Below are positions 3,862 to 58,173 of a DNA stretch of 58,173 nt, piece by piece (positions within the stretch are counted from its first letter, which is position 1; each line of letters opens with the position of its first letter). The notes under the pieces were generated by a model. That model searched no databases, was not told the DNA's origin, and saw only the letters and a list, made by a program, of their open reading frames with translations. The stretch lies in IMG/VR virus record IMGVR_UViG_3300036853_000164, positions 1 through 58,173 of that record; one strand, given 5' to 3'. The position numbers were made by a program, and so were the translations under genes. This DNA comes from a virus.

Positions 3862-4707
3862 GTGGCAGATACCGCCTTCATGGTCCAATACCGAAAGGAA
3901 GCCATCATGGGCTTCGAATTCGGTCAATCGGACCTGCGGACGAGCGTCACCACCGAAGCCGTAATCAAGGGCAACCAGGCAACCTTCCTTGTAGCGGACT
4001 CCGGCGGCGCTTCCGCCTCCTCGCGCGGCGTGAACGGGCTCATCCCCGCACGCGCTGACGACCTCAACCAGTTCACCGCCACCTTGGTCGAGTGGCACGA
4101 CCTCGTGCGACGCACGAGCTTCAACATTTTCGCATCGCAAGGCGATGGCCGCCGCATCATGCAGGCGACCACGCGCAAGGTGCTCAACCGCAAGACCGAT
4201 CTCGACATCATGTCGGCCTTGCAGACCGGCACCAGCTACATCGGCACCTCAGCGGTGACGATGACCTTGGCACTCTTTGTGCGCGCCAAGGTGGCGCTCG
4301 GCGTCAACCAGGTCCCGGTCGAAGAAATGGACAACATGTTCGCGGTTATCTCGCCCGCGGCCATGGGCTATCTGGAGCAGATCAAGGAATTCAACAACGC
4401 GAATTTCGTGGATGTGAAGACCTTGAACGGACCGGCGCGCCGGTTCCGTCGCTGGGCCGGCTTCAATATAATCGAGCACCCGCTCGTTCCCGGCGTCGGC
4501 ACCAGCTCCGAAACCCTGTTCTTCTATCACCGCGACGCCATCGGCCACGCGGTCAACACCGGCGAAATGCAAGCCCTCGCCGGCTACCACGAAGAACAGG
4601 ATTACTCCTGGGCTCGCACCTCCGCGTTCATGGGCTCGACCCTCCTGCAGAACAGAGGCGTGATCCTCTGCCGGCACGACGGCTCCGGCTATGCGACCAC
4701 GGCATAA
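3862..4707 (+). CDS. Major capsid protein
   Basis: Protein of 281 aa placed directly after portal and scaffold. It has the look of a shell protein: an extended N-arm (FMVQYRKEAIMGFEFGQSDLR), balanced alpha/beta content and no membrane or repeat features. Related proteins in alphaproteobacterial phages are annotated as phage capsid protein; an HK97 fold is inferred. The start is taken as GTG 3862, preceded by GGAG seven bases upstream (TATGGAGCAACAAC). ATGs at 3839 and 3849 are in other frames. It forms the icosahedral shell. Confidence 0.85.
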   Translation: MADTAFMVQYRKEAIMGFEFGQSDLRTSVTTEAVIKGNQATFLVADSGGASASSRGVNGLIPARADDLNQFTATLVEWHDLVRRTSFNIFASQGDGRRIMQATTRKVLNRKTDLDIMSALQTGTSYIGTSAVTMTLALFVRAKVALGVNQVPVEEMDNMFAVISPAAMGYLEQIKEFNNANFVDVKTLNGPARRFRRWAGFNIIEHPLVPGVGTSSETLFFYHRDAIGHAVNTGEMQALAGYHEEQDYSWARTSAFMGSTLLQNRGVILCRHDGSGYATTA

Positions 4708-4722
4708 GGGAGGGCATGAAAA

Positions 4723-6132
4723 ATGGCATACGTATCAGGCTCTCTCTCCATGATCCTCGACGACGTCGAGAGCAGCATTACCTACTGGACCTATTACACC
4801 GCTGACAGCTTCGCCCAGGTCGGCGCAGCGAACTACATCACCGACGCCACCACGAAGAGGATGGCTGTCGGCGATATCGTCGATGTGTGGTCCGGCACGC
4901 TCACGAACTTCTCGGCCTCGACCGGCGGCCAGACCCTCGGCGGAGCGACCTTCAGCCCGACCGTCGGCATTACGGCGCGGTTCTCCTCGGTCCCGGCGTG
5001 GGGCCGATTCATGGTGACCGCGGTCGGTGCCGGGACCACGACCTCGGCTGGCGCTGCCACGCTTACCCAGATCGAGCTGCCGTCCAGCGCCCTTGGTACT
5101 GCGCCGCGCAACCTGATCCAGGCGGGCGACTTCACGACCAACCCGTGGCAGGCGGGAACCTCGTTCAACGGCAGTTCGCTAACCCCAGCGATCACCGCTG
5201 ACAGGTGGGTTGCAAACGCGGCCACGTCGACAGTCTGGACCGCGGGCCGTACCGCCAACACCACCGTGCCGGGATTCTCGACGGCGTATGTGTGGGGCCG
5301 GTCGGCAGGCGACACGCATACCACCGGCCTCTCGTTCGGCCAGGTGATCGAGACCGCGAACTCAGTCCGCGTTCAAGGTCTCCCGGTGGCGCTGTCGTTC
5401 TGGGCTGTGGCTAACGCAAACTTCGCGGCCGGCGCAAATGGCGGCACGCTCATCGCTTCGATCGTGTCGGGCGCTGGTAGCGTCGATGACACCTCGGGCA
5501 AAATGTTCTCGTCCGCGTGGACGGGAATGACGACCGTCGCGACGCAGACGATCACCCCGACGACCACGGTCCAGCGCTTTGGACCGATTGGCGGCGTGGT
5601 GCCGACCGGCTGCACGCAGCTCGGCGTGGTGTTCTCGTACTCGGCCACCACGGCGGCGACTTCTCCCGGCATCACCGCAGGCGCCAATGAAAGCGTTCAG
5701 TTCATGGGCATGCAGCTCGAGGCCGGCGGCATGTCTCCGTTCGAGCATCTGGACATGGCCCAGGTCGTGGAAACGGCGACCCGGTATCTCCAGGTCTGGA
5801 ACGAGCCAACGGCGGGCATCGCGGTCGGCCCGGCCGGCTTCTCGGCCGCTTCGATCGCGCTCGTCCACGTCCCGATCGTGACGCCGCTGCGCAAGTCTCC
5901 GACCGTGACGTTCAACACGGGCGGATGGGCAGTGACGGACCAGGGTCAGACTACCCACCGCGTTTCGGCGGGCGGCCTGCAAGGCGCCGTCACGTCAGGG
6001 GCCGGAGCATCATCGATGACGCTGCTGGTCACCTGCGCCGGCACGTTCTCGGCCGGTAACAGCGCGTCGCCGCTGTTCCTGCAAGGGCAGTCGACGGGCC
6101 TCGGCTCGATCGTCGCCAACGCTGACTACTAA
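4723..6132 (+). CDS. Ser/Thr/Ala-rich capsid-associated or fibre protein, 469 aa
   Basis: It follows the capsid gene by 15 bases. Residues 1-110 form a conserved-looking small domain (DDVESSITYWTYYTADSF, then RMAVGDIVDVWSG). Residues about 125-345 resemble a beta-sandwich carbohydrate-binding module found in phage fibres (APRNLIQAGDFTTNPWQAG, then FMGMQLEAGGMSPFEH). The rest is beta-rich and low in charge. The protein is very rich in Thr, Ser, Ala and Gly and would offer many glycosylation sites, which is notable because glycosyltransferase genes follow. Head fibre, decoration protein or tail fibre are all possible; the position favours a head-associated role. Confidence 0.7.
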   Translation: MAYVSGSLSMILDDVESSITYWTYYTADSFAQVGAANYITDATTKRMAVGDIVDVWSGTLTNFSASTGGQTLGGATFSPTVGITARFSSVPAWGRFMVTAVGAGTTTSAGAATLTQIELPSSALGTAPRNLIQAGDFTTNPWQAGTSFNGSSLTPAITADRWVANAATSTVWTAGRTANTTVPGFSTAYVWGRSAGDTHTTGLSFGQVIETANSVRVQGLPVALSFWAVANANFAAGANGGTLIASIVSGAGSVDDTSGKMFSSAWTGMTTVATQTITPTTTVQRFGPIGGVVPTGCTQLGVVFSYSATTAATSPGITAGANESVQFMGMQLEAGGMSPFEHLDMAQVVETATRYLQVWNEPTAGIAVGPAGFSAASIALVHVPIVTPLRKSPTVTFNTGGWAVTDQGQTTHRVSAGGLQGAVTSGAGASSMTLLVTCAGTFSAGNSASPLFLQGQSTGLGSIVANADY

Positions 6133-6142
6133 GCAACCAATG

Positions 6143-6170
6143 CCCCGAGGGATATGTCCCTCGGGGTTTT
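6143..6170 (+). terminator. Rho-independent terminator after the capsid block
   Basis: Perfect 10-bp stem (CCCCGAGGGA / TCCCTCGGGG) with a TATG loop, followed by TTTTCT. It lies just after the 469-aa gene and before the glycosyltransferase cassette, so it should separate high-level head gene expression from the genes downstream. Confidence 0.85.
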
Positions 6171-6188: not shown

Positions 6189-8348
6189 ATGAACATCGAA
6201 GTTCCAGAACAGGTCAGACTCAATGCGTCCCGGATCAATAACGTTGCACTCCAGAAAGCTGTACAGGAGAGCGTTCGCGACGGGACGAAGGTGTTGCGCA
6301 CGGCGATCGCCGAGCTGCGCCTGGCGGTGGCGACCAATCCGCTCGACCTCGGCATCAGGATGAACCTCGCCACGTATCTGCATGAGATTTGCGATCTCGA
6401 TGGCGCGGAAGCGATTTGCAGTTTCGTGCTCAAACACGATGAGCGTTGCCTGGCCGCATGGCAGATCATGGGCTCAATCCACGCGATGCGCGGCCGGCTA
6501 TCCGACTCGATCGCTTGCAACCAGCGCTGCTATGATATCGACCCGTCCAGCGGCTCCGCCTGCTGGGGCCTCACCGAGGCTCATCTGCGCGCGGGGGACT
6601 GGGCAGCCGGCCTGCCGCTTTACGAGCGCAGAGACGAGATTCTCCCGAGGGTCACCCTCATTCCGAATGCGCCGCGCTGGGACGGTTCGAAGACCGGGCA
6701 CCTCGCGGTATGGCCCGACCAAGGCTTCGGCGATAGCCTGATATTCGCGAGGTTCCTGCCGTGGGCGCGGGAGCGCTGTGACAAGCTGACGGTGATGGTC
6801 GCCCCGGAAATGCTGCCGCTGATGGGTGGCTTCATGGACCTCGCCACCGTGAAAACAGGGGTGAGTCTCGATGACCACTACGACCATCAAATTCGTATCA
6901 GCAGCCTGCCGTTGGTCTATGGACTGACGCCGGACAACATCCCGCCCGACCCCGGCCTCGTCACCGCCGCAGAGTTCACCGGCCATCTTGACGGCGACTT
7001 CAAGATCGGCATCGCATGGCAGGGCAACCCCAAATTCCCTGCCGATCGGCTGCGCTCTATTCCGTTCGCCGAGTTTCTGCCGTTCGGCTCCGACCCGCGC
7101 AATACGCTCTACAGCCTGCAGGTGGGCCCGGCGGCAAAGGATATTGCCCTGCATGAGGCGCAATCGCTCGTGCGGGACATGTCTGGCGTTCTCGCGGGCG
7201 ACTGGGCGCGCACCGCGGCGATCGTCAAGCAGCTCGACTTGGTGGTTTCGTCCTGCACGGCGGTCGTGCATCTGGCCGGTTCGCTGGGCGTCCGCTGCTT
7301 CGTGATGCTGCCGGCCGCTGCGGATTGGCGCTGGCTGTCTGGCCGCGACGACACGCCCTGGTATCCCCATACAAGGCTATTCCGACAAACCACGCCGGGC
7401 GATTGGTCGGGCGTCGTCAAGCGCGTGCAGGTCGCCATCGACCAGTTTCACGAGCAGCGCAATATGACGCGGCTGCTCAACAAGCAGATCAGCAGCATCG
7501 TCCCGTTCAATCCCAAGACCATGGTCGACATGCGGGCTCCCGGCACAATCGACGAGAAGGAGCCGGACGTCGCCAGGGCCATGCGGAAGATCCTGCGGCC
7601 GGGCGACACGTTCATCGATGTGGGCGCAAACGTCGGGATGCACACCGCGCTGGCGGCCGAACTAGTCGGCATCGACGGCAAGGTGATCGCGGTCGAGCCG
7701 GGCGAGAATGCGTTGCCTGAGTTGCGCCGGAAATGCGAGGGCCTGCCTCAGGTCTACATCATACAGAATCCTGCCTGGTCCCTTATCGGCGACGTCGAGT
7801 TCTATCTCTGCGCCGACGGCTCCGGGGGAAATGCGGTGTGGGATCCCGGCAAATTCCCAATCAATCATCAGACGCGGGCAAATCCGAGCATGAAGGTCAT
7901 GCGGGCGACGACGCTCGATGCCGTGTGCGCCAGACACGCGCCGCGCCTGATCAAAATCGACACCGAGGGCGCCGAGCAGCGCATTCTCGAAGGCGCGTCC
8001 GATCTATTGAGCGGGCCGCGCGCCCCGCCCTTCATCATCGCCGAGTTCCACGAGTTCGGCCTGCGCGAACTGGGCTGCAGTTTCGACAGCCTCCGCGACC
8101 TGATGGGAAGGCATGGCTATCAGACCTTCCATCTGTTCCCCGACGGCTCGCGCCCTTGGCGGGTGCCCGACGGGGAGCGGCTGCGTGCCCCGAAGGAATT
8201 CATCATCAATCTGCTGTTCTCCACCGAGGCCGAGGTCAATGCGCTCTGGACCGAGGCGCCGTCCGGCGATTACCGGACGGTGTACGGGTTCCGGATCGTT
8301 TCGGAGCCGATCGAGGACCACGTCAAGCAGTGGGCGGGGGCTGCATGA
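6189..8348 (+). CDS. TPR - glycosyltransferase - FkbM methyltransferase fusion, 719 aa
   Basis: Three modules in one chain. Residues about 35-160 are tetratricopeptide-like helices (LGIRMNLATYLHEICDLDGAE; AWQIMGSIHAMRGRLSDSI). Residues about 170-425 look like the GT-B glycosyltransferase found in TPR/OGT-like and heptosyltransferase-like proteins (WPDQGFGDSLIFARF near 175, FKIGIAWQGNP near 271, VVSSCTAVVHLAGSLG near 352). Residues about 460-690 are an FkbM-type SAM methyltransferase (FIDVGANVGMHTALAAE near 475, IKIDTEGAE near 588). Expected role: transfer a sugar to a protein or glycan and O-methylate it. The start ATG has GAGGGG upstream, and the stop overlaps the next gene as ATGA. The likely target is a virion surface protein; this is inferred from position. 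Confidence 0.85.
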   Translation: MNIEVPEQVRLNASRINNVALQKAVQESVRDGTKVLRTAIAELRLAVATNPLDLGIRMNLATYLHEICDLDGAEAICSFVLKHDERCLAAWQIMGSIHAMRGRLSDSIACNQRCYDIDPSSGSACWGLTEAHLRAGDWAAGLPLYERRDEILPRVTLIPNAPRWDGSKTGHLAVWPDQGFGDSLIFARFLPWARERCDKLTVMVAPEMLPLMGGFMDLATVKTGVSLDDHYDHQIRISSLPLVYGLTPDNIPPDPGLVTAAEFTGHLDGDFKIGIAWQGNPKFPADRLRSIPFAEFLPFGSDPRNTLYSLQVGPAAKDIALHEAQSLVRDMSGVLAGDWARTAAIVKQLDLVVSSCTAVVHLAGSLGVRCFVMLPAAADWRWLSGRDDTPWYPHTRLFRQTTPGDWSGVVKRVQVAIDQFHEQRNMTRLLNKQISSIVPFNPKTMVDMRAPGTIDEKEPDVARAMRKILRPGDTFIDVGANVGMHTALAAELVGIDGKVIAVEPGENALPELRRKCEGLPQVYIIQNPAWSLIGDVEFYLCADGSGGNAVWDPGKFPINHQTRANPSMKVMRATTLDAVCARHAPRLIKIDTEGAEQRILEGASDLLSGPRAPPFIIAEFHEFGLRELGCSFDSLRDLMGRHGYQTFHLFPDGSRPWRVPDGERLRAPKEFIINLLFSTEAEVNALWTEAPSGDYRTVYGFRIVSEPIEDHVKQWAGAA

Positions 8349-9517
8349 GGATCGCCCTCGACTGGCAGATTTCTAGTTGGTTTGGATGGGGCGTTTATGG
8401 ATTGAACCTCGCCCTTGAGTGGGCGCACGATCCAGAGATTGAGGCGAGCGGCGAAATCCGCAACCTCGAAGACATTGTCATTACTGACAAGGATGGAAGG
8501 GTCGTCATCGACGAAGTCACCGGCAAGATCAAGATAGAGAAAGCGAGCATCGTCGTCGACAGGATGCGCCGCCGCGCGCTGATCCCGTTCGTGCAGCGCA
8601 GCCTCAAGCACGTTCCGCCTGAAGCTGTCTTGATCCAAAATCTCGGCAACGAGCTGCGCAGTCACCACGATCGCAAGCCTGGCGGCATCGGCGCGATCTT
8701 CTTCGAGCAGCCGCTCTCGGCCGAGGCCGTGGAGAAGGCGAAGCGGTACGACGTGATCGTTGCCGGCTCCACTTGGAATGCCGAGGTACTCAAAGGACAT
8801 TGTCTCGACAATGTCGTGACGATCTTCCAGGGCGTCGACCGCAGCCTGTTTCACCCGGCGCCAAAGCGCGGGCTCTATCCTGGCAGGTTCCTGATCTTCA
8901 GCGGGGGCAAGGCCGAGCCGCGCAAGGGGCAGGATCTCGTCGCCAAGGCGTTCCGCGTCTTCGCCGAGCGGCACAAGGATGCTATGCTGGTGACGGCGTG
9001 GCATTCACCATGGCCCGAGTTGCGCAACGGCATGGACCTCGACTTTAGCGACCTCGCCGACCGGGTGATCGATGTGGGCGCCGTGCCCAACGGCCAGATG
9101 GCGCCGATCTATCGCGAGTGCAATGTGGCGCTGTTTCCGAACCGCGCGGAAGGCGGGACGAACCTCGTGGCGATGGAGTGCATTGCGTGCGGGGTGCCGA
9201 CGATCGTGTCGCGTAACACCGGCCATCGCGATCTCGATATACCAGGCACGCTGTTCCTAGAGTACCAACGCCCCCCGGCGGGACAGTGGACTGAGTGGGG
9301 CGAGAGCAGCGTCGCCGAGATCGTCACGGCGCTGGAGGTGGCATACCGCAACAGCTATCCGCGCATCCGTGCGATGAAGCACTACGACCCGCTCGACGGC
9401 AGGTTCCTGTGGGAAGACGCGGCCTCCGAGCTCGCCGCCATCGCCAAGCAACACCAACCGAGGACACATCATGTCGAAGGTCGAAAAGACCGCCACGTCG
9501 AGCACCATGCCGTCTGA
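8345..9517 (+). CDS. Glycosyltransferase, GT4/GT1 type, 390 aa
   Basis: GT-B fold glycosyltransferase. The N-terminal domain starts MRIALDWQISSWFGWGVYG. The C-terminal nucleotide-sugar domain contains FSGGKAEPRKGQDLVAKAF (about 186-204), matching the RKG phosphate-binding region, and NRAEGGTNLVAMECIACGVP (about 266-285), the E-x(8)-E-like donor-site motif of this family. It is translationally coupled to the fusion gene before it, so the two should act on the same glycan. Its last 47 bases overlap the next gene in another frame, and its C-terminus is His/Arg-rich. It acts in the cytoplasm, presumably on capsid or fibre proteins before assembly. Confidence 0.85.
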   Translation: MRIALDWQISSWFGWGVYGLNLALEWAHDPEIEASGEIRNLEDIVITDKDGRVVIDEVTGKIKIEKASIVVDRMRRRALIPFVQRSLKHVPPEAVLIQNLGNELRSHHDRKPGGIGAIFFEQPLSAEAVEKAKRYDVIVAGSTWNAEVLKGHCLDNVVTIFQGVDRSLFHPAPKRGLYPGRFLIFSGGKAEPRKGQDLVAKAFRVFAERHKDAMLVTAWHSPWPELRNGMDLDFSDLADRVIDVGAVPNGQMAPIYRECNVALFPNRAEGGTNLVAMECIACGVPTIVSRNTGHRDLDIPGTLFLEYQRPPAGQWTEWGESSVAEIVTALEVAYRNSYPRIRAMKHYDPLDGRFLWEDAASELAAIAKQHQPRTHHVEGRKDRHVEHHAV

Positions 9518-9971
9518 GAGCGCGCCTGCCGAGCATGCCGCCCCCGTGCCCTTCGCGGCCAACGCCTGGGCGCTCAAGGAGAGCGCGAACCCGGGCTTCT
9601 ACATTTGCGTGCCGGCCGGCACCACGATCGATGATTGCCTGTCGCCGGCCGTATGGGCGAACGTCGCCGGCAAGATGCGGCCCTACAGCACGATCGAGGT
9701 GCACTGGGCGGATGGCGGCCAGTTCGCCGAGTTCTATGTCGAATCCTGCGGGCGCAACTGGGCCGGCGTCTGGCTGATGCGCCACCACGTTCGGCAGACC
9801 GCGGTGGCCCGCCCGATCGACCGGACCGAACTGGCGGTCTCATTCAACGGGCCGGTCGACAAGTACCGCGTCACCCGGCTGAGCGACAACGCGGTGCTGC
9901 AGGCTGGCTTTGCCTCTGAAAGCGAGGCGCGGCGCTGGGCCGACGAATATCGGCGAAAGCTGGCGGCATGA
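9471..9971 (+). CDS. Hypothetical protein, 166 aa
   Basis: The start ATG lies inside the end of the glycosyltransferase gene, and the stop overlaps the next gene (ATGA). Residues 1-25 are Ser/Thr/Ala-rich and probably disordered. A compact domain follows (NPGFYICVPAGTTIDDCLSP, then VHWADGGQFAEFYVESCGRNWAGVWLMRH). No family assigned with confidence. As part of the run of small genes between the glycosylation genes and tail tubular protein A it is probably a virion or assembly protein. Confidence 0.7.
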   Translation: MSKVEKTATSSTMPSESAPAEHAAPVPFAANAWALKESANPGFYICVPAGTTIDDCLSPAVWANVAGKMRPYSTIEVHWADGGQFAEFYVESCGRNWAGVWLMRHHVRQTAVARPIDRTELAVSFNGPVDKYRVTRLSDNAVLQAGFASESEARRWADEYRRKLAA

Positions 9972-11062: not shown

Positions 11063-11265
11063 TGGCGAAAATATCAAAGACTGACGCGGGCTACGGCCCC
11101 GGCCAGCCACACTGCGGCGTGTGCGTTCATTTCGTCGAGGGCGATTCGGAGGACGACGAAAACGACGCCTGCGAACTCGTCATGGGCAAGATCGACGAGG
11201 ACAAGTTGTGCAAGCTGTTTACCTGGCCGCGGCTGCCGACGCTGGCTGAGAGTGGGGGCGAATGA
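11062..11265 (+). CDS. Small Cys-rich protein, possible metal binder, 67 aa
   Basis: ATG at 11062 overlaps the previous stop by one base; a GTG lies one codon earlier. The protein has CGVCVHF and DACELVMGKIDEDKLCKLF, four spaced cysteines that could bind zinc or an iron-sulfur cluster, between acidic stretches. Similar Cys-rich small proteins occur beside tail tubular protein genes in alphaproteobacterial podoviruses. No known function. Confidence 0.65.
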   Translation: MAKISKTDAGYGPGQPHCGVCVHFVEGDSEDDENDACELVMGKIDEDKLCKLFTWPRLPTLAESGGE

Positions 11266-11927
11266 CCACCTCGAAACTATCGATCTACAACCAAAGCCTA
11301 GGCCATCTCCAGGAGCGCAGCATCGCCTCGCTCTCGGAGAACCGCGAGCCGCGGCGCGTGCTCGATGACTACTGGGACCAGGAAACGGCATGGTGCCTGG
11401 AAAGGCACTTCTGGAACTTCGGCTATCGCTCTGACCAGATTGACGCCTCGACCACGATCACGCCGTCGTTCGGGTTCCTCTATGCCTTCAACATCCCCAG
11501 CGATTGGATACGGACGCGCAAACTCTCCGCGGTGCCGACCTTCGATCCGCCCCTGCTGCAATTCGCAGAAGAGGCCGGGTTCTGGTACACCAACATCACG
11601 CCGATCTATGTGCAGTACAATTCGAGCCATTCCCAGTATGGCATGGACATGGGCAAATGGCCGGCGTCGTTCGTCGACTTCGTGGCGCTGCGGCTTGCTC
11701 GGAAAGCAGCGGGTCGAATTACCAACAAGGCCGAATTGCTGTTCGGCCCGGACGGCCTGATCAAGCAAGAGGAAAAGGCCCGCAAGACTGCAGCCTCCAT
11801 CTGCGCCATGAATGAGCCGGTCGGCTTCCAGCCGCAATCCAGTTGGATACGCTCGCGGCGCGGGTTTGCGACGCAGATGCCGGGGCCGGGCGGGGACTCG
11901 CCGACGGGCGGGAGCCTGATCCCGTAA
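11262..11927 (+). CDS. Tail tubular protein A, T7 gp11-like
   Basis: Protein of 221 aa, close to the usual size (about 200 aa). The N-terminus matches the family well: LSIYNQSLGHLQERSIASL, then VLDDYWDQETAWCLERHFWNFG, and a YAFNIPSDWIRTRKLS motif. It forms the ring (gatekeeper) between the portal and the tail nozzle. The gene is immediately followed by tail tubular protein B, as expected. Confidence 0.9.
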   Translation: MTTSKLSIYNQSLGHLQERSIASLSENREPRRVLDDYWDQETAWCLERHFWNFGYRSDQIDASTTITPSFGFLYAFNIPSDWIRTRKLSAVPTFDPPLLQFAEEAGFWYTNITPIYVQYNSSHSQYGMDMGKWPASFVDFVALRLARKAAGRITNKAELLFGPDGLIKQEEKARKTAASICAMNEPVGFQPQSSWIRSRRGFATQMPGPGGDSPTGGSLIP

Positions 11928-11928
11928 C

Positions 11929-14900
11929 ATGAGGGTCAACGCCCCGCTGATGGCTCTAAACAGGGGCGAATGTTCGAAGCTCGCCCTCGCCCGCGTCGAC
12001 CTCGCCAAGCTGCAGCTCGCCGCGGAATGTCAACTCAACTGGATGCCTTGGGTGATGGGTGCCATGATGCTGCGGCCCGGTCTCAACTATGTCGGCGAGG
12101 TCGACGGCGACAATCCGGCTTGGCTGATCGACTTCATCTACTCAAAGACCGACACGGCGCTGCTCGAACTCACCGCGAACAAGTTGCGGGTGTGGATCAA
12201 TGACGCGCTCCTGACCCGCGTCGCTGTATCGACGACCGTCCTCGATCCCACCTTTACCGGCACCGGAAGCCACTGGACGACGAGCGACACAACGGACGGC
12301 TGCACGGCCACGGTGACGGGCGGCGTCGCGACGCTCACCGCATCGGCCCGCGGCGGCCTCTCCCGCATCAAGCAGACGTTGACGATCGCCGCGCCCGACC
12401 AGAACGTGGAACACGCGCTGCGCGTCGTCGTCACCGACGGCCCGGTCACCATACGGGTCGGCTCCTCGGACGGCCTGCAGGACTACATGACCTCGACGGC
12501 GATCGACGAGGGCACGCATTCGCTGGTATTCACCCCGACCGGCGGCAGCGCCTTCTTGCAGATCGAGAGCACCGATACGTGGGCGAAGACGCTCACGGGC
12601 TGCACGATCGAGGCGGCCGGCATTGTGTCGATCACGACGCCATGGGGCGCCTCTACCCTCTCGACCCTGCGCTGGGCGAACTCGCTCGACGTCGTCTATG
12701 TCGCCCAGTACGGCGGCCAGCAGTACAAGATCGAACGGCGCGGCACCCGGCCAGGGGCCCGGGGCTGGTCGGTGGTCAAATACAAGACGGCCAACGGGCC
12801 GTTTCTCAACCTGCCGACCTTGCCGAATGTGACCCTCACGCCCTCGGTCTATGAGGGCAACGGAACATTGACGGCGTCGCGGCCGTTTTTCCAGACAGGC
12901 CATGTCGGCGCGCTGTTCCAGCTGTTCACCAACGGGCAAGATGTCAAAACCTTCCTCGGTGCGGCGGGGGCATTCACGGATCCGGTCGTGATCGATGGGT
13001 TTGGCCCCGATCGGAAGTTCGGGATCACGACCACCGGCACATGGTCGGGCACGCTCACGATCCAACGGTCATTGGTGGGCCCGACTACCGGCTTTGAGAT
13101 CGCCACCAACAACGCGACGGCACCGACGATAACGACGAATGCCACCAAACTTTTCGACGACACTTCGTCGGGCTACAACGGCGCCAAGCTTTGGGTCAGG
13201 GTCGGCTTTGTCGCGGCGGCCGATTACACGAGCGGCGCGGCGGGCGTCCAGTTCACCAATCCCAGCGGCGCCACTTTCGGCCTCGTGACAGGCGGCGCCG
13301 TCGACAATGGCGGCCAGTATGGCATCTGCCGCGTGACCGGCTACACCTCGCCGACGCAAGTCTCGATCGAGGTGCTGTCCTATGGCGCGCTCAATGGCGG
13401 CGGCGGGTTTAGTTCGCTGCGCGGCACCACCAATTGGGCAGAGGGCGCATGGAGCGGCGTCCAGGGCTGGCCGAACTCGGTGGCGTTCCATGAGGGCCGG
13501 CTCGGCTGGTTCTCGGCGGCGCAATTCCCGATGGCATTGAGCCAGTCCAACAATTACACCGGCTTCGCCTCGATCGATATGTTTGGCGAGTCCTTGGGCG
13601 ATGCCGGTGTCATCCTGCAGAGCTTTGGCGAAGGTCCCGCCGACCGGGTTAACTTCGCGCTGGGCCTGCAACGCCTTTTGCTCGGCCGCGAGGAATCGAT
13701 TGCCTCGGTCCGGTCCAGTTCTTTCGACGCGCCGCTGACCCCGACCGACTGCGCGATCAAGAATTGCTCCGACCAAGGCGCGACCAGGCTGCCGGCGGTC
13801 ACGGCGGGCAAGCGTGGCATTTATGCCGGTACGGGTGGTCGAGTTTACGAACTGGCATTTGCCCCCCAGGAAGCGGACTACGGCGAGCGCGACCTCACGC
13901 GGCTCAACACCGAGATCGGAATTCCCGGCTTTGTCGACGTCGCGCTGGCGCGTCAGACCGACCGCACCCTGTACCTGCCGCGCGGCGATGGCATGGCTGC
14001 CTGCCTGCTCTACGACCCTGGCGACGAGGTCGAGGCGTGGTGGCGGCTCATGACGCTCGGCATCATCGAAAACGTGCGGCGGCTGCCAAACTACGACAAC
14101 ACGGGGCCCGACGATTACACATACTTCGTGGTCAAGCGCACCGTGAACGGGTCCACCAAGCGCTTCATTGAGAAGATGGCGCAGCGCACCGATTGCATTG
14201 GCGGCCTGTCGAATCAGCAACTGGACAGCGCCTATGTCTATTCCGGCGTCGCGGTCTCCTCGATTACGATTTCCTGGCTGCCGAGCACGACTGTTTCGGT
14301 ATGGGCGGACGGCGCGTTTATCGGCACGGGAACGACGGACGGTTCGGGTATCCTTTCGCCCCTTCCAGATGGCCTCGCGCATACGAGTATCGTCGCCGGC
14401 TTGACCGGGGGCACGTTCACCTATTCCGGGGCAGAGGCCTCCGTCATCACCGGGCTTGACGCCTATGACCTGCTTCCGGGGGAGTTCTTTGCCGATCAGC
14501 AGCCTTCGGGCCGGATGATCCGCATCGGCACGCTCACGCCCTCCGGCGGGTCGGTCACGCTGCCGAACGGCATACAGTCCGCGAACGTCGTCGGCTTCTT
14601 CGGCTACCAGGCGCCGTTCATGTCGGCGAAGCTCGCCTATGGCGCCCAGCGCGGCTCGGCACTCACGCAAAAGAAACGGATCGACCACATCGGCCTGGCG
14701 GGCTTCGATATGAGCGCAGTCGGCCTGCAATTCGGCCAGCGGTTCGATCGGCTCGATTCGCTGCCCCTGATCGAGGATGGCGCGGCGGTATCTACCGGCG
14801 GCGTTTGGAGCGAGTTCGACCAGCCGATGATCGAGCTACCCGGGGAATACGACACCGACGCGCGGCTATGTCTGCTGGCGCAAGCGCCGTATCCGGCGAA

Positions 14901-14943
14901 GGTTGGCGGAATTGTTCTGGGGGTGGCTACGAACGAGATGTGA
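11929..14943 (+). CDS. Tail tubular protein B (nozzle), T7 gp12-like
   Basis: Protein of 1004 aa, within the range for podoviral nozzle proteins (about 800-1000). It starts with LMALNRGECSKLALARVDLAKLQLAAECQLNWMPWVMGAM and RPGLNYVG, a signature of this family. Later segments include NSVAFHEGRLGWFSAA and the C-terminal AYGAQRGSALTQKKRIDHIG. It forms the tail nozzle through which DNA leaves. A Thr/Ser/Gly-rich beta domain (residues about 90-220) may be surface-exposed. The last 17 bases overlap a minus-strand gene. Confidence 0.9.
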   Translation: MRVNAPLMALNRGECSKLALARVDLAKLQLAAECQLNWMPWVMGAMMLRPGLNYVGEVDGDNPAWLIDFIYSKTDTALLELTANKLRVWINDALLTRVAVSTTVLDPTFTGTGSHWTTSDTTDGCTATVTGGVATLTASARGGLSRIKQTLTIAAPDQNVEHALRVVVTDGPVTIRVGSSDGLQDYMTSTAIDEGTHSLVFTPTGGSAFLQIESTDTWAKTLTGCTIEAAGIVSITTPWGASTLSTLRWANSLDVVYVAQYGGQQYKIERRGTRPGARGWSVVKYKTANGPFLNLPTLPNVTLTPSVYEGNGTLTASRPFFQTGHVGALFQLFTNGQDVKTFLGAAGAFTDPVVIDGFGPDRKFGITTTGTWSGTLTIQRSLVGPTTGFEIATNNATAPTITTNATKLFDDTSSGYNGAKLWVRVGFVAAADYTSGAAGVQFTNPSGATFGLVTGGAVDNGGQYGICRVTGYTSPTQVSIEVLSYGALNGGGGFSSLRGTTNWAEGAWSGVQGWPNSVAFHEGRLGWFSAAQFPMALSQSNNYTGFASIDMFGESLGDAGVILQSFGEGPADRVNFALGLQRLLLGREESIASVRSSSFDAPLTPTDCAIKNCSDQGATRLPAVTAGKRGIYAGTGGRVYELAFAPQEADYGERDLTRLNTEIGIPGFVDVALARQTDRTLYLPRGDGMAACLLYDPGDEVEAWWRLMTLGIIENVRRLPNYDNTGPDDYTYFVVKRTVNGSTKRFIEKMAQRTDCIGGLSNQQLDSAYVYSGVAVSSITISWLPSTTVSVWADGAFIGTGTTDGSGILSPLPDGLAHTSIVAGLTGGTFTYSGAEASVITGLDAYDLLPGEFFADQQPSGRMIRIGTLTPSGGSVTLPNGIQSANVVGFFGYQAPFMSAKLAYGAQRGSALTQKKRIDHIGLAGFDMSAVGLQFGQRFDRLDSLPLIEDGAAVSTGGVWSEFDQPMIELPGEYDTDARLCLLAQAPYPAKVGGIVLGVATNEM

Positions 14944-34712: not shown

Positions 34713-34912
34713 TTCCCTTCCCTCCGCATCTTCGCCTTGTCCATCGCCGTCCGGTCCAGCACTGGGGCAGCCTCGTTCTTTAGAAAAACCTCGACGGCAA
34801 GATTGCCGAAGTTCCTGGTGTCCACGCGGACGTGATCAATCTCGCGGCCGGTCGCGTTCACGAAATCGATCAGCGCCCGCTGGATGGCATTCTCCAATTC
34901 GTCGACGGTCAT
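34709..34912 (-). CDS. Hypothetical protein, 67 aa
   Basis: ATG 34912 overlaps the recombinase stop (ATGA), so it is translated after it. The product (VDELENAIQRALIDFVNATGREIDHVRVDTRNFGNLAVEVFL) is a small alpha/beta protein. No family recognised. The coupling suggests a role near recombination or only common regulation. Confidence 0.6.
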   Translation of the reverse strand: MTVDELENAIQRALIDFVNATGREIDHVRVDTRNFGNLAVEVFLKNEAAPVLDRTAMDKAKMRREGK

Positions 34913-35841
34913 TCCCCGCCTCGCTTCTTGTCCCGCGCCCGTTCGATCGCCGTCCGGTCCAGCACATGCACCGCGGCCAGCGCGTTCTCCCGCTGGATCG
35001 AGTAGCGGCAGTACCGCGTCACCATCTGGGCCGACATGCCGATCATGTCGCTGATCTGCGGGATGGTCGCCCCGGCCCGGCGCAATCGCACCACGGCGGT
35101 TCCCCGCAGCCCGTGCATGACAAGCCCAGCCTCCTTGAGCGGCGCCAGGGCGGGCTTGGTGTTGCGCTCCCGCAGCCATTGGTTGGAGAGCTGCTGACGG
35201 GTGAACGGGTGACCGTACTCCTTGAGCAGAATGAAGCCCGGCCGGCGCTCCCATGAGGCGATTGCCGCCTGCAGCGCGGCCGTGAACGGCACCCATAGTT
35301 CGAGCCCCGTCTTGACCTGGGTGACGTTGATGCCGGGCCGGCCCTCCACCTCCTCGATGTCGGTCCAGCGCATCTTGACGAGGTCTGAGCCGCGCTGGCC
35401 GGTGTTGGCGGCGAGCGTGACGACGCGGGCGAGGTGCGTACGGCAGTGTTGCTCGGCGAGGGCCACCTGCTCGTCTGTCCACGGGATATGACCGCCGGTG
35501 CCGCCTGGCGCCTCGGTCCCGAGCGTAATCTGGCGGGGCAGAAGGTCCCGGACCAGGGCCCACTTCTCTAGGGATTTAATCGCAGTCTGCGCGCACTTTT
35601 GTTGCGCTGGCCGATCGGCGAGGCCGTCGAGGAACGCCTGCACGAGCGCTGGGCGCATTTCATCCACAGGAATCGCACCGAGAATGTCCGACCGTTCGGC
35701 GAGGTTGAGCAGGTGCCGGTAATGAACTTGCGTCGAGCGCGAGAGCGCTTCGAACTTGGGCGACATGAGGAAAGCGCGGACGACAGCCGCAAAACTCCCC
35801 GTCTTGATCTTAGTGACCTTGGGCCGCCCGTCGTGTTGCAT
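34909..35841 (-). CDS. Tyrosine recombinase (early operon), 310 aa
   Basis: Core-binding domain in residues 1-115 (FEALSRSTQVHYRHLLNLAE), catalytic domain after. Visible catalytic residues: Arg in NTGQRGSDLVKMRW, Lys in TQVKTG, H-x-x-R in MHGLRGTAVV and the Tyr in TRYCRY. The usual G-H before the Tyr is G-M here (IGMSAQMVTRY), so one active-site residue is replaced. The start is ATG 35841, which overlaps the HTH gene upstream. It may be a second integrase or a resolvase of altered activity. The intact integrase lies at 48.6 kb. Confidence 0.8.
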   Translation of the reverse strand: MQHDGRPKVTKIKTGSFAAVVRAFLMSPKFEALSRSTQVHYRHLLNLAERSDILGAIPVDEMRPALVQAFLDGLADRPAQQKCAQTAIKSLEKWALVRDLLPRQITLGTEAPGGTGGHIPWTDEQVALAEQHCRTHLARVVTLAANTGQRGSDLVKMRWTDIEEVEGRPGINVTQVKTGLELWVPFTAALQAAIASWERRPGFILLKEYGHPFTRQQLSNQWLRERNTKPALAPLKEAGLVMHGLRGTAVVRLRRAGATIPQISDMIGMSAQMVTRYCRYSIQRENALAAVHVLDRTAIERARDKKRGGE

Positions 35842-36079
35842 TTGTAATGCTCGCTGCAATATCAATCTTGGACGGTGCCATGGTAGCGTCGTCAGGGGCA
35901 AGGTGACGCTCGACTTCCTTCCATGACCATAGCCGTTTGCCCCCGACCTTCTTCGGTGCGGGAAATAGTCCCATCTTCACCCAGTTCTCGATCGTGGACT
36001 CGCCGGCGCTGATGTGCGCGGAAAGCGTCGCCAAGTCTTGAAATGGGGGGATGAAGCCGGGCGGGCGGTCGTAGCTCAT
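35810..36079 (-). CDS. Excisionase-like HTH protein, 89 aa
   Basis: MerR/AlpA-like winged-helix pattern: FQDLATLSAHISAGESTIENWVKMGLFPAPKKVGGKRLWSWKEVERHL, with the wing around KRLWSW. Proteins like this direct excision or act as regulators, and this one is immediately upstream of a recombinase with a 32-bp overlap. Likely recombination directionality factor for one of the recombinases. Confidence 0.7.
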   Translation of the reverse strand: MSYDRPPGFIPPFQDLATLSAHISAGESTIENWVKMGLFPAPKKVGGKRLWSWKEVERHLAPDDATMAPSKIDIAASITNATRRAAQGH

Positions 36080-42677: not shown

Positions 42678-43030
42678 GTGACCGCAAGCTTGCCGATGCC
42701 CGCACGATTCATCCCCGCGCTCTTGCCGATTTGGGCGAGGAAGCCTGCATCGTCACGCTCGGCGTGGCAAGGGATTTGCGGAGTGGGGCGATACCGCCGG
42801 AACAGTACGATCAAAATTATTTTGACCGCTGGCAGACCGAATGTGGAACGGCGTGCTGCATAGCCGGCTGGATGACCATTCGCGGCGTTAATTACGCCCA
42901 ACTATTGAGGGTGCGAGGCGGCCTCTTTGGGACTTCCTATCGTAGACGAACTCCGAACGAGGCCGCCGACGCGATCGAACGCTACATCTGCGACGGCTCC
43001 CACGACCCTTGGGAATTACACGTCGCCTGA
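42674..43030 (+). CDS. Hypothetical protein, 118 aa
   Basis: ATG 42674 is coupled to the gene before it. Contains CGTACCIAGWMTIRG, followed by NEAADAIERYICDGSHDPWELH, a combination common in phage and bacterial proteins of unknown function, with two adjacent Cys. Soluble. Part of the early plus-strand operon. Confidence 0.7.
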   Translation: MSDRKLADARTIHPRALADLGEEACIVTLGVARDLRSGAIPPEQYDQNYFDRWQTECGTACCIAGWMTIRGVNYAQLLRVRGGLFGTSYRRRTPNEAADAIERYICDGSHDPWELHVA

Positions 43031-43097
43031 AATCCTAGTTCGTTCGCGTTTCCACGTACTCGCCCGATTTCATTTCCTCCGCACAGGGGATCGCGGA

Positions 43098-43583
43098 ATG
43101 CTTGCACCGACTGAACCAACCTGGACCGACGAGCGCGTCGCGCAGCTGCGGGAGCTGCAGGCCAAGCAATGGAGCGGGAGCCGCATCGCTGCCGAGCTCC
43201 GCCTCACGCGCAATCAGGTGATCGGCAAGCTCACCAGGCTCGGGCTCAGATGCACAAGCCAGCCGCCGACGCACAGTGGTCGCAACCCGGCGCGCAAGGC
43301 TCACCCCTTCAAGCGCAAGCCGAAGAAGATGGCCGGCACTGTGCGATATGGTGAGCCGGAGATGATGGCAAAGCGATTTGAGCTTGCCGACCTCCCGCTC
43401 GAGCCTCTCCCCGCAAGCCGGCGCTCGATCTTTGAACTGACCGAGGAGACGTGCAGATGGCCGATCGGTGATCCGCAGTCTTCTAACTTTTTCTTCTGCG
43501 GCGACCGTTCGATCGAGGGATTTCCGTACTGCGGACATCACACTCGGATGGCGTACGAGCCTTTGCAATCAAGGAGGCGATGA
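43098..43583 (+). CDS. gcrA: GcrA family cell-cycle regulator, 161 aa
   Basis: The N-terminal HTH (PTWTDERVAQLRELQAKQWSGSRIAAELR-LTRNQVIGKLTRLGL) is the GcrA signature, and the C-terminal part (SIFELTEETCRWPIGDP, FFFCGDRSIEGFPYCGHHTRMAY) is the conserved sigma70-binding domain, with Cys/His residues. GcrA recruits RNA polymerase at methylated promoters in Alphaproteobacteria. A phage copy may redirect host cell-cycle transcription. ATG 43098 has AGGGGA seven bases upstream. Length is close to host GcrA (about 170 aa). Confidence 0.9.
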   Translation: MLAPTEPTWTDERVAQLRELQAKQWSGSRIAAELRLTRNQVIGKLTRLGLRCTSQPPTHSGRNPARKAHPFKRKPKKMAGTVRYGEPEMMAKRFELADLPLEPLPASRRSIFELTEETCRWPIGDPQSSNFFFCGDRSIEGFPYCGHHTRMAYEPLQSRRR

Positions 43584-47677: not shown

Positions 47678-48217
47678 TTGAAGTGGCACGCCATCCGCTC
47701 CACCCCCTCCGGCGAATTCCGCGCCATGCTCGGGATCGACTATGCTCGGATCGAGGTGTTCTTGCCGGTGGAAAAGATGTGGGGGCCCGAACGCAAGGGC
47801 CGCAAGACCAAGGTGCTTCGACCACTGATCCCGCGCTACCTATTTGCCCGGTTCGACGCCGGCCGCGACCTTACCAGGATCCTCGAGGTTGACGGTGTCG
47901 ACGATGTTCTGCGGATCGACGGCAAGCTCGGGTATGCCAACGAGGAGCTGGTCGCGGAGCTGAAGCGCTCCCAAGAGGTGGGCGGCTTTGATAGGACCGC
48001 TCGGCACCTGAACCTGACGGCCGGCGAGCGGCTAAAGATTGGCGACCGCCGGATAGGCGATATCGAGGGCCATTTCGAGAACTGGCGCGACGACCCTGCG
48101 GTTACGAAATTTGCCCGCAAGCTCAGGGCGACGCGCGCGAAAGATCGAATAAAGTTCGCCCTGGCCAACGGCATGATCATGAACGTGCCGGCGAACAAGG
48201 CGGAGAAGGCGGGGTGA
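47678..48217 (+). CDS. NusG-like antitermination protein, 179 aa
   Basis: Residues 1-95 match the NusG N-terminal domain (WHAIRSTPSGEFRAMLGI, VFLPVEKMWGPERKGRKTKVLRPLIPRYLFARFD). Residues about 110-150 fit a KOW-like domain (LTAGERLKIGDRRIGDIEGHFENW). Start is TTG 47678 with GGGAGGGG upstream. As the last gene of the early operon it is well placed to let RNA polymerase pass terminators and start late expression, similar to a phage antiterminator. Confidence 0.8.
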   Translation: MKWHAIRSTPSGEFRAMLGIDYARIEVFLPVEKMWGPERKGRKTKVLRPLIPRYLFARFDAGRDLTRILEVDGVDDVLRIDGKLGYANEELVAELKRSQEVGGFDRTARHLNLTAGERLKIGDRRIGDIEGHFENWRDDPAVTKFARKLRATRAKDRIKFALANGMIMNVPANKAEKAG

Positions 48218-48564
48218 GGTACATTTAGGTATATTTAGGTAACAATCCGTCGCAATTGACGGCGGCCATGGAATTTGATTGTCTGTAGGGCAGCCGAGGA
48301 TAATGGTTGCGCCAACCGGGCAACTGACATCGGCTGCGGCCTCGACCACGGCCGGATCGGGTTGGGAAAAATTCTTGGCCCGGTAGGCTTGTCTCCAAAA
48401 TTTTCAGAAATGCGTGACGCGACGCGGCGCTGAAATACTGTGCCGGGAATGCTCGCGCATGTCTCGCCGGCGCGCGCGGATGTACCGCCGCCGGCAGCCT
48501 CAAACTTCAGTCGTCCGAGTGCCCGATACCCCCCGTTGTCATGCGCTATCGGGAGGCAGTTTTA
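48218..48564. other. Intergenic region before the integrase
   Basis: About 345 bases with no convincing gene. It begins with tandem (A/T)ATTTAGGTA repeats (48221-48242). Near the integrase start a 7-bp stem (CCCGATA 48522-48528 / TATCGGG 48547-48553) includes part of the Shine-Dalgarno GGGAGG, which could reduce integrase translation. A promoter is likely but not identifiable. Confidence 0.4.
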
Positions 48565-49509
48565 ATGCCCGACAACCTCCCGATCATCCATACCTCAGAG
48601 CTATCGCAAGCCACTGACGCAGCAAGGGAATTTCTCCAATCTTCGCGCGCAGACAACACGTTGCGCGCCTATCGCGCGGCCTGGGCGGACTTCGAATCAT
48701 TTTGCCGACGCTCTGGCCTTCAGTCCCTGCCCGCCGAGCCGCAAACAGTGGCGTTTTACCTCGCTTCCTTGCCAGGTCGCGGCCTCAAGGCCTCGACCAT
48801 CAAGTTGCGCCGCTCGGCGATCATGTACGCCCACCGGCCGACGGGGCAGAACCCGGTCGACCATCCCGGCGTCGCCCAAGTCCTTGATGGTATCCGGCGG
48901 ACGCTGGCTACGGCGCCGACCAAAAAGACCGCGCTCACCGTCCAGGTGCTCGAGCGAGTGCTGCGTAAGATCCCGGATGACCTCGCCGGCGTCCGCGATC
49001 GCGCCCTGCTCCTCGTGGGATTTGCGGCCGCGCTTCGGCGCTCCGAGCTCGCCGCCCTCGATGTCACCGACATCCAACGCCACCCGAAGGGGTTGGTGGT
49101 AAAAATCCGCCGGTCGAAAACCGATCAGCACGGCGAGGGTATGGTGAAGGTCATCCCGCGGGGCAAGCGCCTCCACGTCATCGAGGCGCTCGACGCCTGG
49201 ATTGCTGCCGGCAAGATCACGCACGGGCCCTTGTTTCGGTTAGCGCGCGGGATCACGGTCGGATCGAGCAGGATCACCGACGGCCAGATCGCCCGCGTGA
49301 TCAAGTGCCGTCTGCGCAGGGCGGGGTTCGACGCCCGCACCTATTCGGGCCATTCGCTGCGGTCCGGATTCATCACATCGGCAGCGGAAGCGGGCGCATC
49401 GCTCCAATCCATCGCTGATGTGGCCGGCCATGAGAAGTTGGACACCACGCGCGGATATGTGCAGGTGGCGGACGCTTTCCAGGATCATGCGGGGCGGAAG
49501 TTCCTCTAG
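48565..49509 (+). CDS. int: Tyrosine integrase (XerC/D-like), 314 aa
   Basis: N-terminal SAM-like binding domain (AAREFLQSSRADNTLRAYRAAWADFESFC) and catalytic domain. All catalytic residues are present: Arg in ALRRSELAALD, Lys in IRRSKTDQ, H-x-x-R in YSGHSLRSGF, His in AGHEKLDTT and Tyr in TRGYVQ. The ATG 48565 has GGGAGG upstream. The gene lies directly beside the tRNA-like attP core, so this is the integrase that inserts the phage into the host tRNA gene. Confidence 0.9.
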   Translation: MPDNLPIIHTSELSQATDAAREFLQSSRADNTLRAYRAAWADFESFCRRSGLQSLPAEPQTVAFYLASLPGRGLKASTIKLRRSAIMYAHRPTGQNPVDHPGVAQVLDGIRRTLATAPTKKTALTVQVLERVLRKIPDDLAGVRDRALLLVGFAAALRRSELAALDVTDIQRHPKGLVVKIRRSKTDQHGEGMVKVIPRGKRLHVIEALDAWIAAGKITHGPLFRLARGITVGSSRITDGQIARVIKCRLRRAGFDARTYSGHSLRSGFITSAAEAGASLQSIADVAGHEKLDTTRGYVQVADAFQDHAGRKFL

Positions 49510-58040: not shown

Positions 58041-58173
58041 CTCGTGCCCACAATAGGAATAGCTCTAATTCTACTCGCGCTTGCACTCGTCTTGAGAAAT
58101 CAAGCGGCCGAGTTTGAAGGGCCTATTCCCTATTGGTGGCGGCGAAGTCGGCAATAAGACCCGATGCGTGAGC
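58041..58173. repeat. Right copy of terminal overlap
   Basis: This copy repeats positions 7-139. It again contains the small membrane gene frame (GTG 58044 to TAA 58157). One base is missing relative to the left end just before it, so the ATG at 58036 reads into a stop (TAG) after six codons in this copy, while in the left copy the same stretch would be open. The two ends thus disagree at a single site. Confidence 0.85.

Follow-up and report, generated by a model that had tools for sequence, protein, structure and literature searches.

In Caulobacter, the TPR domain of FlmG binds flagellin and its glycosyltransferase (GT) domain glycosylates that flagellin in the cytoplasm (PMC7591256). Virion glycosylation by a phage is already known from mycobacteriophages, where GTs of Che8 (gp110), Corndog (gp38) and Myrna are described as glycosylating capsid and tail-tube protein (Freeman et al. 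2023, as cited in PMC12363180 and PMC12619734). The locus analysed in this study belongs to an uncultured, temperate phage of an alphaproteobacterial host, and the window referred to below is the whole stretch of DNA studied (IMGVR_UViG_3300036853_000164, positions 1 to 58,173, one strand; an IMG/VR virus record of 58,173 nucleotides). Genomic comparisons suggest that the enzymes encoded behind its capsid genes form a late-expressed, soluble protein-glycosylation module that probably modifies the phage's own virion surface, with the C-domain of a fibre protein as the likeliest target and the capsid as a possible one.

Gene order and enzymes of the cassette

In the original prediction, a TPR-GT-FkbM fusion and a GT4 gene separate the capsid block from the tail tubular genes and directly follow a terminator and a Ser/Thr-rich protein; both the arrangement and the placement were borne out (Table 1). 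The terminator between the fibre gene and the fusion gene is a strong, perfect hairpin (CCCCGAGGGATATGTCCCTCGGGG, then TTTT) and lies in a region with dG -25.7 and z -2.4; a hairpin is present at the equivalent position in 8/8 cassette carriers, with differing stem sequences. The reading frame first listed for GT4 (7733-9517) is over-extended, and its real start is the ATG at 8345, which overlaps the upstream stop (ATGA). Because four relatives keep the genes of the cassette region, with amino-acid identities of 46-64%, chance ORFs are ruled out. The GC content of the cassette (63.1%) matches that of its flanks (64%), with no foreign signature in base composition, and therefore recent acquisition is not indicated. 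The description of the operon as T7-like had to be abandoned, as the genome carries two tyrosine integrases and the early region of the window holds no ORF of the size of a single-subunit RNAP; the other lifestyle genes found were an HTH repressor-like gene and a GcrA homologue. A genome scan with an MCP alignment returned no prophage.

Table 1. Positions of the cassette and neighbouring features in the window
Feature	Coordinates	Strand	Evidence
Major capsid protein (MCP), Phage_capsid_2 / phrog_3437	3862..4707	+	PF19821 E=1.5e-19 (Pfam); phrog_3437 E=4e-52
Ser/Thr-rich head-fibre-like protein, proposed substrate	4723..6132	+	phrog_18004 E=3e-9, predicted structure, composition
Rho-independent terminator/attenuator separating structural genes from enzymes	6142..6169	+	Hairpin and T-run
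TPR (~30-150) - GT-B (~160-420) - FkbM (~455-690) fusion, 719 aa	6189..8348	+	Pfam, homology, Foldseek
GT4-family glycosyltransferase, 390 aa	8345..9517	+	PF13692 E=8e-13 (Pfam); phrog_2170 E=1e-20; conserved relatives
Conserved late gene g9471, cassette flank	9471..9971	+	phrog_26742
Tail tube A-like protein, right border of the slot	11262..11927	+	phrog_394 E=2e-31
Tail tube B/nozzle protein	11929..14943	+	phrog_376 E=8e-104

An FkbM domain (PF05050) was detected by Pfam on residues 477-645 of the fusion (E=9e-14, 52.4 bits against a gathering cut-off of 22.7), and its SAM motifs DVGA and KIDTEGAE are kept in homologues of the window lineage and in phage L110. Pfam TPR models were sub-threshold on the window fusion (E~3e-4), and TPR_19 was significant on the L110 orthologue (E=1e-11). 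Since the GT-B domain has no Pfam match, including none to a GT41 model, its identity was taken from homology to TPR-glycosyltransferases and from Foldseek, in which SPINDLY and OGT came out on top (E 1e-8 to 1e-6) with low global TM-scores for a low-confidence AF2 model (pLDDT 62 overall, the GT domain too weak for residue-level claims). Searches of the PDB by sequence matched only the TPR part, plus a generic SAM-methyltransferase similarity, and profile matches to OGT and SPY also span the TPR part only. A TPR domain is also seen in the AF2 model, and together with the GT-B assignment this gives the architecture of an FlmG-type enzyme, soluble with an N-terminal TPR followed by GT-B; no membrane segments were found in the cassette proteins. 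The second enzyme matches Glyco_trans_1_4 at 49.3 bits (cut-off 27), which assigns it to GT4, and has an EGxTNLVAME region in common with its bacterial relatives. The FkbM domain itself is confirmed, but the predicted O-methylation of the glycan is just one option for its role, and no FkbM was detected in the related phage L136; in L012, TPR-GT and FkbM are encoded as separate genes.

The fibre protein and exchange of the module

The protein upstream of the hairpin had been described as Ser/Thr-rich and capsid-associated. Its composition (24.5% S+T, the highest of the 23 window proteins tested) and location agree with this, and its nature is corrected to head-fibre-like, with an N-terminal anchor (~1-115, phrog_18004) and an all-beta CBM/tail-fibre-like C-domain (~129-469). 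The AF2 model is all-beta and Foldseek matched it to CBM22, CBM4, CBM16 and phage tail fibres, while the C-domain of the L028 orthologue matches tail-fibre phrog_4492 (E=1e-36); PDB sequence searches were uninformative both for this protein and for the small post-capsid protein of L162. The fibre fold does not depend on glycosylation, since a long fibre protein is encoded by many relatives that lack the cassette.

IMG/VR scans with the fusion or GT4 as single proteins gave no matches, and a TPR-GT alignment from six phages was too divergent for profile scanning; the relatives were reached by a scan with an alignment of the window GT4 and bacterial GT4s. The search for the enzyme pair beside capsid genes of other phages, proposed with the original prediction, found the order portal..MCP-fibre-TPR-GT-FkbM-GT4-g9471-tail tubes, with FkbM fused or separate, intact in four diverged relatives (L011, L012, L014, L023). 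The divergence of g9471 tracks the capsid lineage, not the cassette. L110 has an unrelated SU10-type MCP (E=4e-94), and the gene after it carries the fibre C-domain (59% identity) on a different N-terminus and is followed by a TPR-GT-FkbM fusion. When two close relatives that lack the cassette enzymes (L028 and L032) were compared with the carriers, they were also found to lack the cassette-type fibre C-domain. Their flank identities (L028/L032) are 87/82% for MCP, 56/44% for the fibre N-terminus, 54/51% for g9471 and 63/67% for tail tube A, and their fibre C-domains are 37/38% identical, against a range of 46-66% for carriers and 81% for L027, a near-twin. Both group with cassette carriers in the MCP tree (98/96) and fall outside the cassette clade in the fibre C-domain tree (99/97), and the capsid-gene grouping is rejected for the fibre C-domain (AU p=3.9e-7). 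These comparisons place the start of the exchanged segment inside the fibre gene, at a domain boundary, and indicate that the outer domain of the fibre has travelled together with the enzymes, as a block, among unrelated phages.

The slot itself differs in content among relatives, being empty or holding the cassette or other putative GTs. In L028 it is filled by two putative GT-As plus a methyltransferase (MT), in L039 by two putative GT-As, and such sets are possibly functional replacements of the cassette. Co-transfer of neighbouring genes can also arise by hitch-hiking.

Of 99 viral TPR-GT loci (73 non-redundant), 87 have the TPR-GT 0.15-1.2 kb downstream of the MCP gene (criterion, MCP <2 kb upstream), a count that includes partly homologous lineages and was obtained with query sequences that are themselves capsid-adjacent; 11 of the remaining 12 loci are truncated, with <0.7 kb of sequence on the upstream side. 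The post-capsid position was taken separately by at least three TPR-GT clades, and several unrelated capsid families are involved. Cyanophage homologues adjoin tail fibres, not capsid genes, and the TPR-GT of L168 adjoins neither. Among bacteria, the GT4 relatives adjoin T1SS and repeat-protein or adhesin genes in the cases inspected, and 52 of 80 have a TPR-GT within 9 kb, many of these fused to GT4. Homologues had been proposed as a check, in case they were always tied to host-surface glycans; those in phages are nearly always by capsid or tail-fibre genes, and the bacterial ones inspected are next to secreted surface proteins.

Possible functions of the cassette

The enzymes, their order, their co-inheritance with the fibre C-domain and their recurrence behind capsid genes are seen directly, and from them we infer a substrate, sugar, linkage, methylation target, time of expression and benefit. 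In the cytoplasm, the TPR superhelix would dock on the fibre or capsid protein soon after its synthesis, the GT-B domain would move a first sugar from a host nucleotide-sugar onto Ser/Thr, the GT4 enzyme would lengthen it, and the fused FkbM domain would methylate the glycan. The terminator-attenuator would hold enzyme output under that of the abundant structural proteins. Because a TPR domain is present, protein substrates are favoured. The claim of self-glycosylation of virion proteins by the phage is, at the level of genomics, well supported by the module swap, synteny and recurrence, except for its T7-like and O-methylation details. The purposes proposed with it, concealment of receptor-binding surfaces or attachment to host glycans, would be candidate benefits.

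The same genes could instead alter LPS or capsule glycans of the host, for serotype conversion or superinfection exclusion, and travel with a receptor-binding fibre domain that needs the same glycan. The GT4 family is common in LPS synthesis, the phage is temperate, and the CBM-like C-domain, found in tail fibres too, may bind a host glycan. However, the cassette has no membrane segments and no GtrA/GtrB-like partner, its TPR domain indicates protein substrates, a late structural operon behind a terminator would be poorly timed for host conversion, and the bacterial relatives inspected lie beside secreted proteins, not in LPS loci, all of which makes host-surface modification unlikely. A Gtr serotype-conversion cluster (GtrA flippase, GtrB bactoprenol GT and membrane GT) was considered as well and is unlikely, as the cassette proteins have no Pfam matches to such components and no TM segments.

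That the enzymes are selfish or neutral cargo, morons in a tolerant intergenic slot that hitch-hike with the neighbouring fibre domain, seems quite improbable given enzyme motifs that are preserved across five genomes despite identities of only ~50%, TPR-GTs behind the MCP across several unrelated capsid families, and a transfer breakpoint that coincides with the domain boundary within the fibre gene; another GT/MT set may also occupy the slot where the cassette is absent. The variability of the slot would fit such cargo, as would the ability of adjacency by itself to drag genes along. DNA hypermodification, in which the GTs would decorate modified phage bases against restriction, is highly improbable: phage GTs acting on DNA are known (among those cited in PMC12619734), but these genes sit in a head/tail operon, their nearest kin are TPR protein glycosyltransferases, and no hydroxymethylase or base-modification gene was found among the window proteins scanned, some small ORFs lying outside the scan.

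Comparison with known systems

No description of a TPR glycosyltransferase with a phage capsid, and no report of an enzyme and a fibre domain moving together between unrelated phages, was found in the open-access literature. Our judgement is evenly balanced on a broader reading, in which OGT/FlmG-like TPR-GTs would be a widespread virion-glycosylation strategy among uncultured tailed phages, recruited repeatedly to the position directly behind an MCP and its decoration/fibre gene. In the present lineage, enzyme and acceptor domain would form an exchangeable enzyme-substrate pair whose breakpoint falls within the gene for the acceptor, and glycan coats would thereby be swapped as modules between unrelated capsid lineages. 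If this is true, TPR-guided, protein-docking glycosylation is common in environmental tailed phages, and many soil and water virions bear glycan coats, some methylated, that may affect receptor binding, stability and recognition. Additionally, natural swaps would supply enzyme-substrate pairs for testing substrate choice by bacterial-type O-glycosyltransferases.

The mycobacteriophage systems are alike in having phage-encoded GTs with virion proteins as targets, which are deduced here from genomics; they serve other hosts, the available excerpts on them do not describe a TPR fusion, an FkbM fusion or fibre-domain co-inheritance, and the likeness is drawn from their published description. Alphaproteobacterial and cyanobacterial TPR-GT/GT4/FkbM clusters (e.g. 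L009, L010, L171, L173, L008) contain the same GT4 family at ~35-46% identity, with TPR-GTs, some FkbM neighbours, GT4-TPR-GT fusions in several genomes and, in some, type-I-secreted repeat proteins alongside. However, these are cellular loci with large secreted proteins, and no single-chain TPR-GT-FkbM fusion occurs among the bacterial matches listed. The GT41 enzymes OGT and SPINDLY, the top Foldseek matches of the fusion model, combine a TPR superhelix with a GT-B that acts on Ser/Thr, whereas the phage fusion has no Pfam GT41 match, a shorter TPR and an extra FkbM. FlmG, compared through its published description, differs in its flagellin substrate, in having no FkbM domain described and in not being a phage gene, but it shares the N-terminal TPR protein-binding domain, the C-terminal GT-B, cytoplasmic modification of a Ser/Thr protein assembled on a surface and an alphaproteobacterial setting (PMC7591256).

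Exchange of enzymes and proposed acceptor as a module

The genes considered here are a TPR-glycosyltransferase-FkbM fusion and a GT4-type glycosyltransferase (the cassette), which follow the gene for a Ser/Thr-rich fibre protein, their proposed substrate. Two close relatives, L028 and L032, group with the cassette carriers on the major capsid protein (MCP) tree (98/96 support), and no TPR-GT, FkbM or GT4 gene was found in either. By segment identity, their MCP, fibre N-domain, g9471 (the late gene flanking the cassette) and tail tube A resemble the window's to the same degree as the carriers' do, whereas their fibre C-domains share 37-38% identity with the window's versus 46-66% in carriers (81% in L027). 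The fibre C-domains of L028 and L032 fall outside the cassette clade (99/97 support), and a fibre tree constrained to the grouping seen for the MCP was rejected (AU p=3.9e-7). On the fibre tree the cassette label can be explained with two changes (mean over shuffles 7.1; none of 500 shuffles as low), on the MCP tree with four. The divergence of the C-domain while the flanks stay close places the start of the replacement inside the fibre gene and its end past GT4. The C-domains of carriers, with L030 counted among them, also contain slightly more Ser+Thr (23.1% vs 20.5%; Mann-Whitney p=0.008, kinship ignored).

The same pairing was seen on another capsid. The viral locus L110 has an SU10-type MCP (PF17236, E=4e-94), of a different family from the window's; the next gene carries the fibre C-domain (59% identity) on a different short N-terminus, and a 743-aa TPR-GT-FkbM fusion comes after it. 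L110 lies within the cassette clade of the fibre tree. At the cassette position, L028 encodes a SAM methyltransferase along with two GT-A-like proteins, and L039, another relative without the cassette, encodes two GT-A-like proteins (weak to moderate PHROG/Pfam matches in both). These genes are plausible non-homologous replacements of the cassette. phrog_1574, to which no function is assigned, may represent a GT-A family.

Enzyme genes, fibre protein and gene order

Both enzyme genes were present as the original prediction described them, as open reading frames with Pfam domains, and the GT4 start codon overlaps the fusion-gene stop (ATGA). The FkbM domain (PF05050, E=9e-14) and the GT4 protein (PF13692, E=8e-13) exceed the Pfam cut-offs; the TPRs are weak in the window fusion and clear in its L110 orthologue. 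Homologues and Foldseek support a predicted GT-B-type glycosyltransferase of the TPR-glycosyltransferase kind as the middle domain. Foldseek matched the fusion model, which is of only moderate quality, to SPINDLY and OGT; we do not assign the fusion to GT41 proper.

Features of the window and of related loci
Feature	Position	Strand	Remarks
TPR-GT-FkbM fusion gene	6189-8348		719 aa
GT4 gene	8345-9517		starts at ATG 8345 rather than where the longer ORF opens upstream
Tyrosine integrase gene	34909-35901	-	
GcrA cell-cycle regulator homologue	42927-43583		PF07750, E=6e-35
NusG-like protein	47678-48217		PF02357
Second, different tyrosine integrase gene	48541-49509	+	
Putative glycosyltransferases and methyltransferase	L028 12284-15264		phrog_1574, phrog_14945; in cassette position
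Putative glycosyltransferases	L039 8215-9800		phrog_1574/phrog_14945 families; in cassette position

Upstream of the enzymes the order is portal, MCP and then the 469-aa fibre protein encoded at 4723-6132, whose Ser+Thr content (24.5%) was the highest among 23 window proteins tested (one tail fibre reached 22.9%). Its N-terminal domain is phrog_18004, the sole part detected in many relatives, and its long all-beta C-domain matches the tail-fibre family phrog_4492 in one related phage (E=1e-36). The fold modelled by AF2 is all-beta, at a mean pLDDT of 67. Its PDB matches were carbohydrate-binding modules (CBM22/CBM4/CBM16) and a K2-2 tailspike; its BFVD matches were either tail fibres of phages or carbohydrate-binding proteins of the CenC-like kind. 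The protein is best described as a putative fibre or decoration protein that is anchored to the capsid and exposes a Ser/Thr-rich, CBM-like domain; gene order would place it on the head.

An IMG/VR scan with the GT4 alignment gave 15 viral loci. Four distinct viruses (L011, L012, L014 and L023, with L013 a duplicate of L012) retain the complete order from portal through MCP, fibre, TPR-GT, FkbM, GT4 and g9471 to the tail tubes, with TPR-GT and FkbM as separate genes in L012. The L027 sequence breaks off within the TPR-GT gene. In the more distant L136, TPR-GT and GT4 were present and a search for FkbM detected none. A perfect hairpin with a T-run lies between the fibre and enzyme genes, and a hairpin plus T-run was found directly 3' of the fibre stop codon in 8/8 carriers tested (including L030, which stops just past it) and in at least one non-carrier (L032). 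The retention of the hairpin despite differing stem sequences suggests a maintained terminator or attenuator separating abundant virion proteins from the enzymes.

Recurrence in phages and bacteria

Two scans seeded with TPR-GTs of other phages returned 95 rows, which with earlier loci made 99 loci (73 non-redundant). In 87/99 a same-strand MCP gene preceded the TPR-GT by 154-1231 bp, a figure to be read knowing that the queries were themselves capsid-adjacent and that loci within one clade are not independent; in 11 of the other 12 the sequence available upstream was shorter than 0.7 kb. These MCPs fall into phrog_334, phrog_1328 (SU10-like) and phrog_617, making four families with the window's. 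On a quick tree (SH-aLRT only), capsid-linked enzymes occupy at least three separate phage clades, and the window clade is nested among alphaproteobacterial enzymes. Cyanophage homologues adjoin tail fibres. Among 50,697 GenBank phage records, only one (MW202512, metagenomic) was found with a TPR-GT shortly behind a capsid gene, and this near-absence may be why the arrangement is little described. A family of unknown function, phrog_28018, is found repeatedly a few genes downstream of capsid-linked TPR-GTs (L161 5320-6006, L162 12487-13209, L002 14256-14951). Judged by eye, its N-terminal sequence FIGYDPNETVAYHV looks GT8-like; a role as partner glycosyltransferase is possible.

GT4 relatives are mainly alphaproteobacterial, and a TPR-GT lay within 9 kb of one in 52/80 loci; many cyanobacterial and Gemmatimonadota cases have both on one polypeptide. 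Next to the GT4 loci inspected lie genes for type I secretion (HlyD, C39-peptidase ABC transporter) and for large repeat proteins; in Niveispirillum the gene directly upstream encodes a cadherin/Ig-repeat adhesin at least 2626 aa long. TPR-GTs occurred in 100/385 sampled genomes from the class of the Agrobacterium locus L173, and none of the matches listed in those genomes reached the FkbM part of the fusion. Cyanobacterial chains of 2400-3300 aa (L224, L227, L231, L233, L243, L246) unite several TPR-GT domains with a GT4 domain, and in some related loci (L224, L244, L248) an FkbM gene is next.

Lifestyle and comparison with known systems

The last 126 bases of the IMG/VR record (58048-58173) exactly repeat positions 14-139, which very probably makes the record a complete, closed genome of ~58.03 kb (about 58,034 bp). 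Bases 1-13 fall outside the match and may be an assembly error. A PF12236-type portal, tail tubes A and B and internal virion proteins, together with two tyrosine integrases, an HTH regulator, the GcrA homologue and the NusG-like protein, indicate a temperate podovirus. The T7-like operon originally proposed holds only for the structural module. The GcrA homologue marks a likely alphaproteobacterial host class; this regulator, carried on a phage, perhaps acts on host cell cycle or transcription. The NusG-like protein is a possible antiterminator, of note given the terminator ahead of the cassette.

Gene content, gene overlap, conservation, co-inheritance and recurrence are direct observations. 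The module swaps, synteny and recurrence support the proposal that the cassette glycosylates the phage's own virion, while the lifestyle (temperate) and the anatomy of the proposed substrate (a CBM-like fibre) required revision. The substrate, sugar, linkage, methylation target and benefit of the cassette are what we infer.

No description of an enzyme-acceptor module swap or of broad capsid linkage was found in the literature searched. The best functional model is FlmG of Caulobacter, which binds flagellin through its TPR domain and, in the cytoplasm, glycosylates it through its GT domain (PMC7591256). For mycobacteriophages, glycosylation of the virion by phage-encoded enzymes has been established, according to the statements citing Freeman et al. 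2023 in PMC12363180 and PMC12619734. The cassette would work like an FlmG-type system combined with virion glycosylation of the kind ascribed there to mycobacteriophages.
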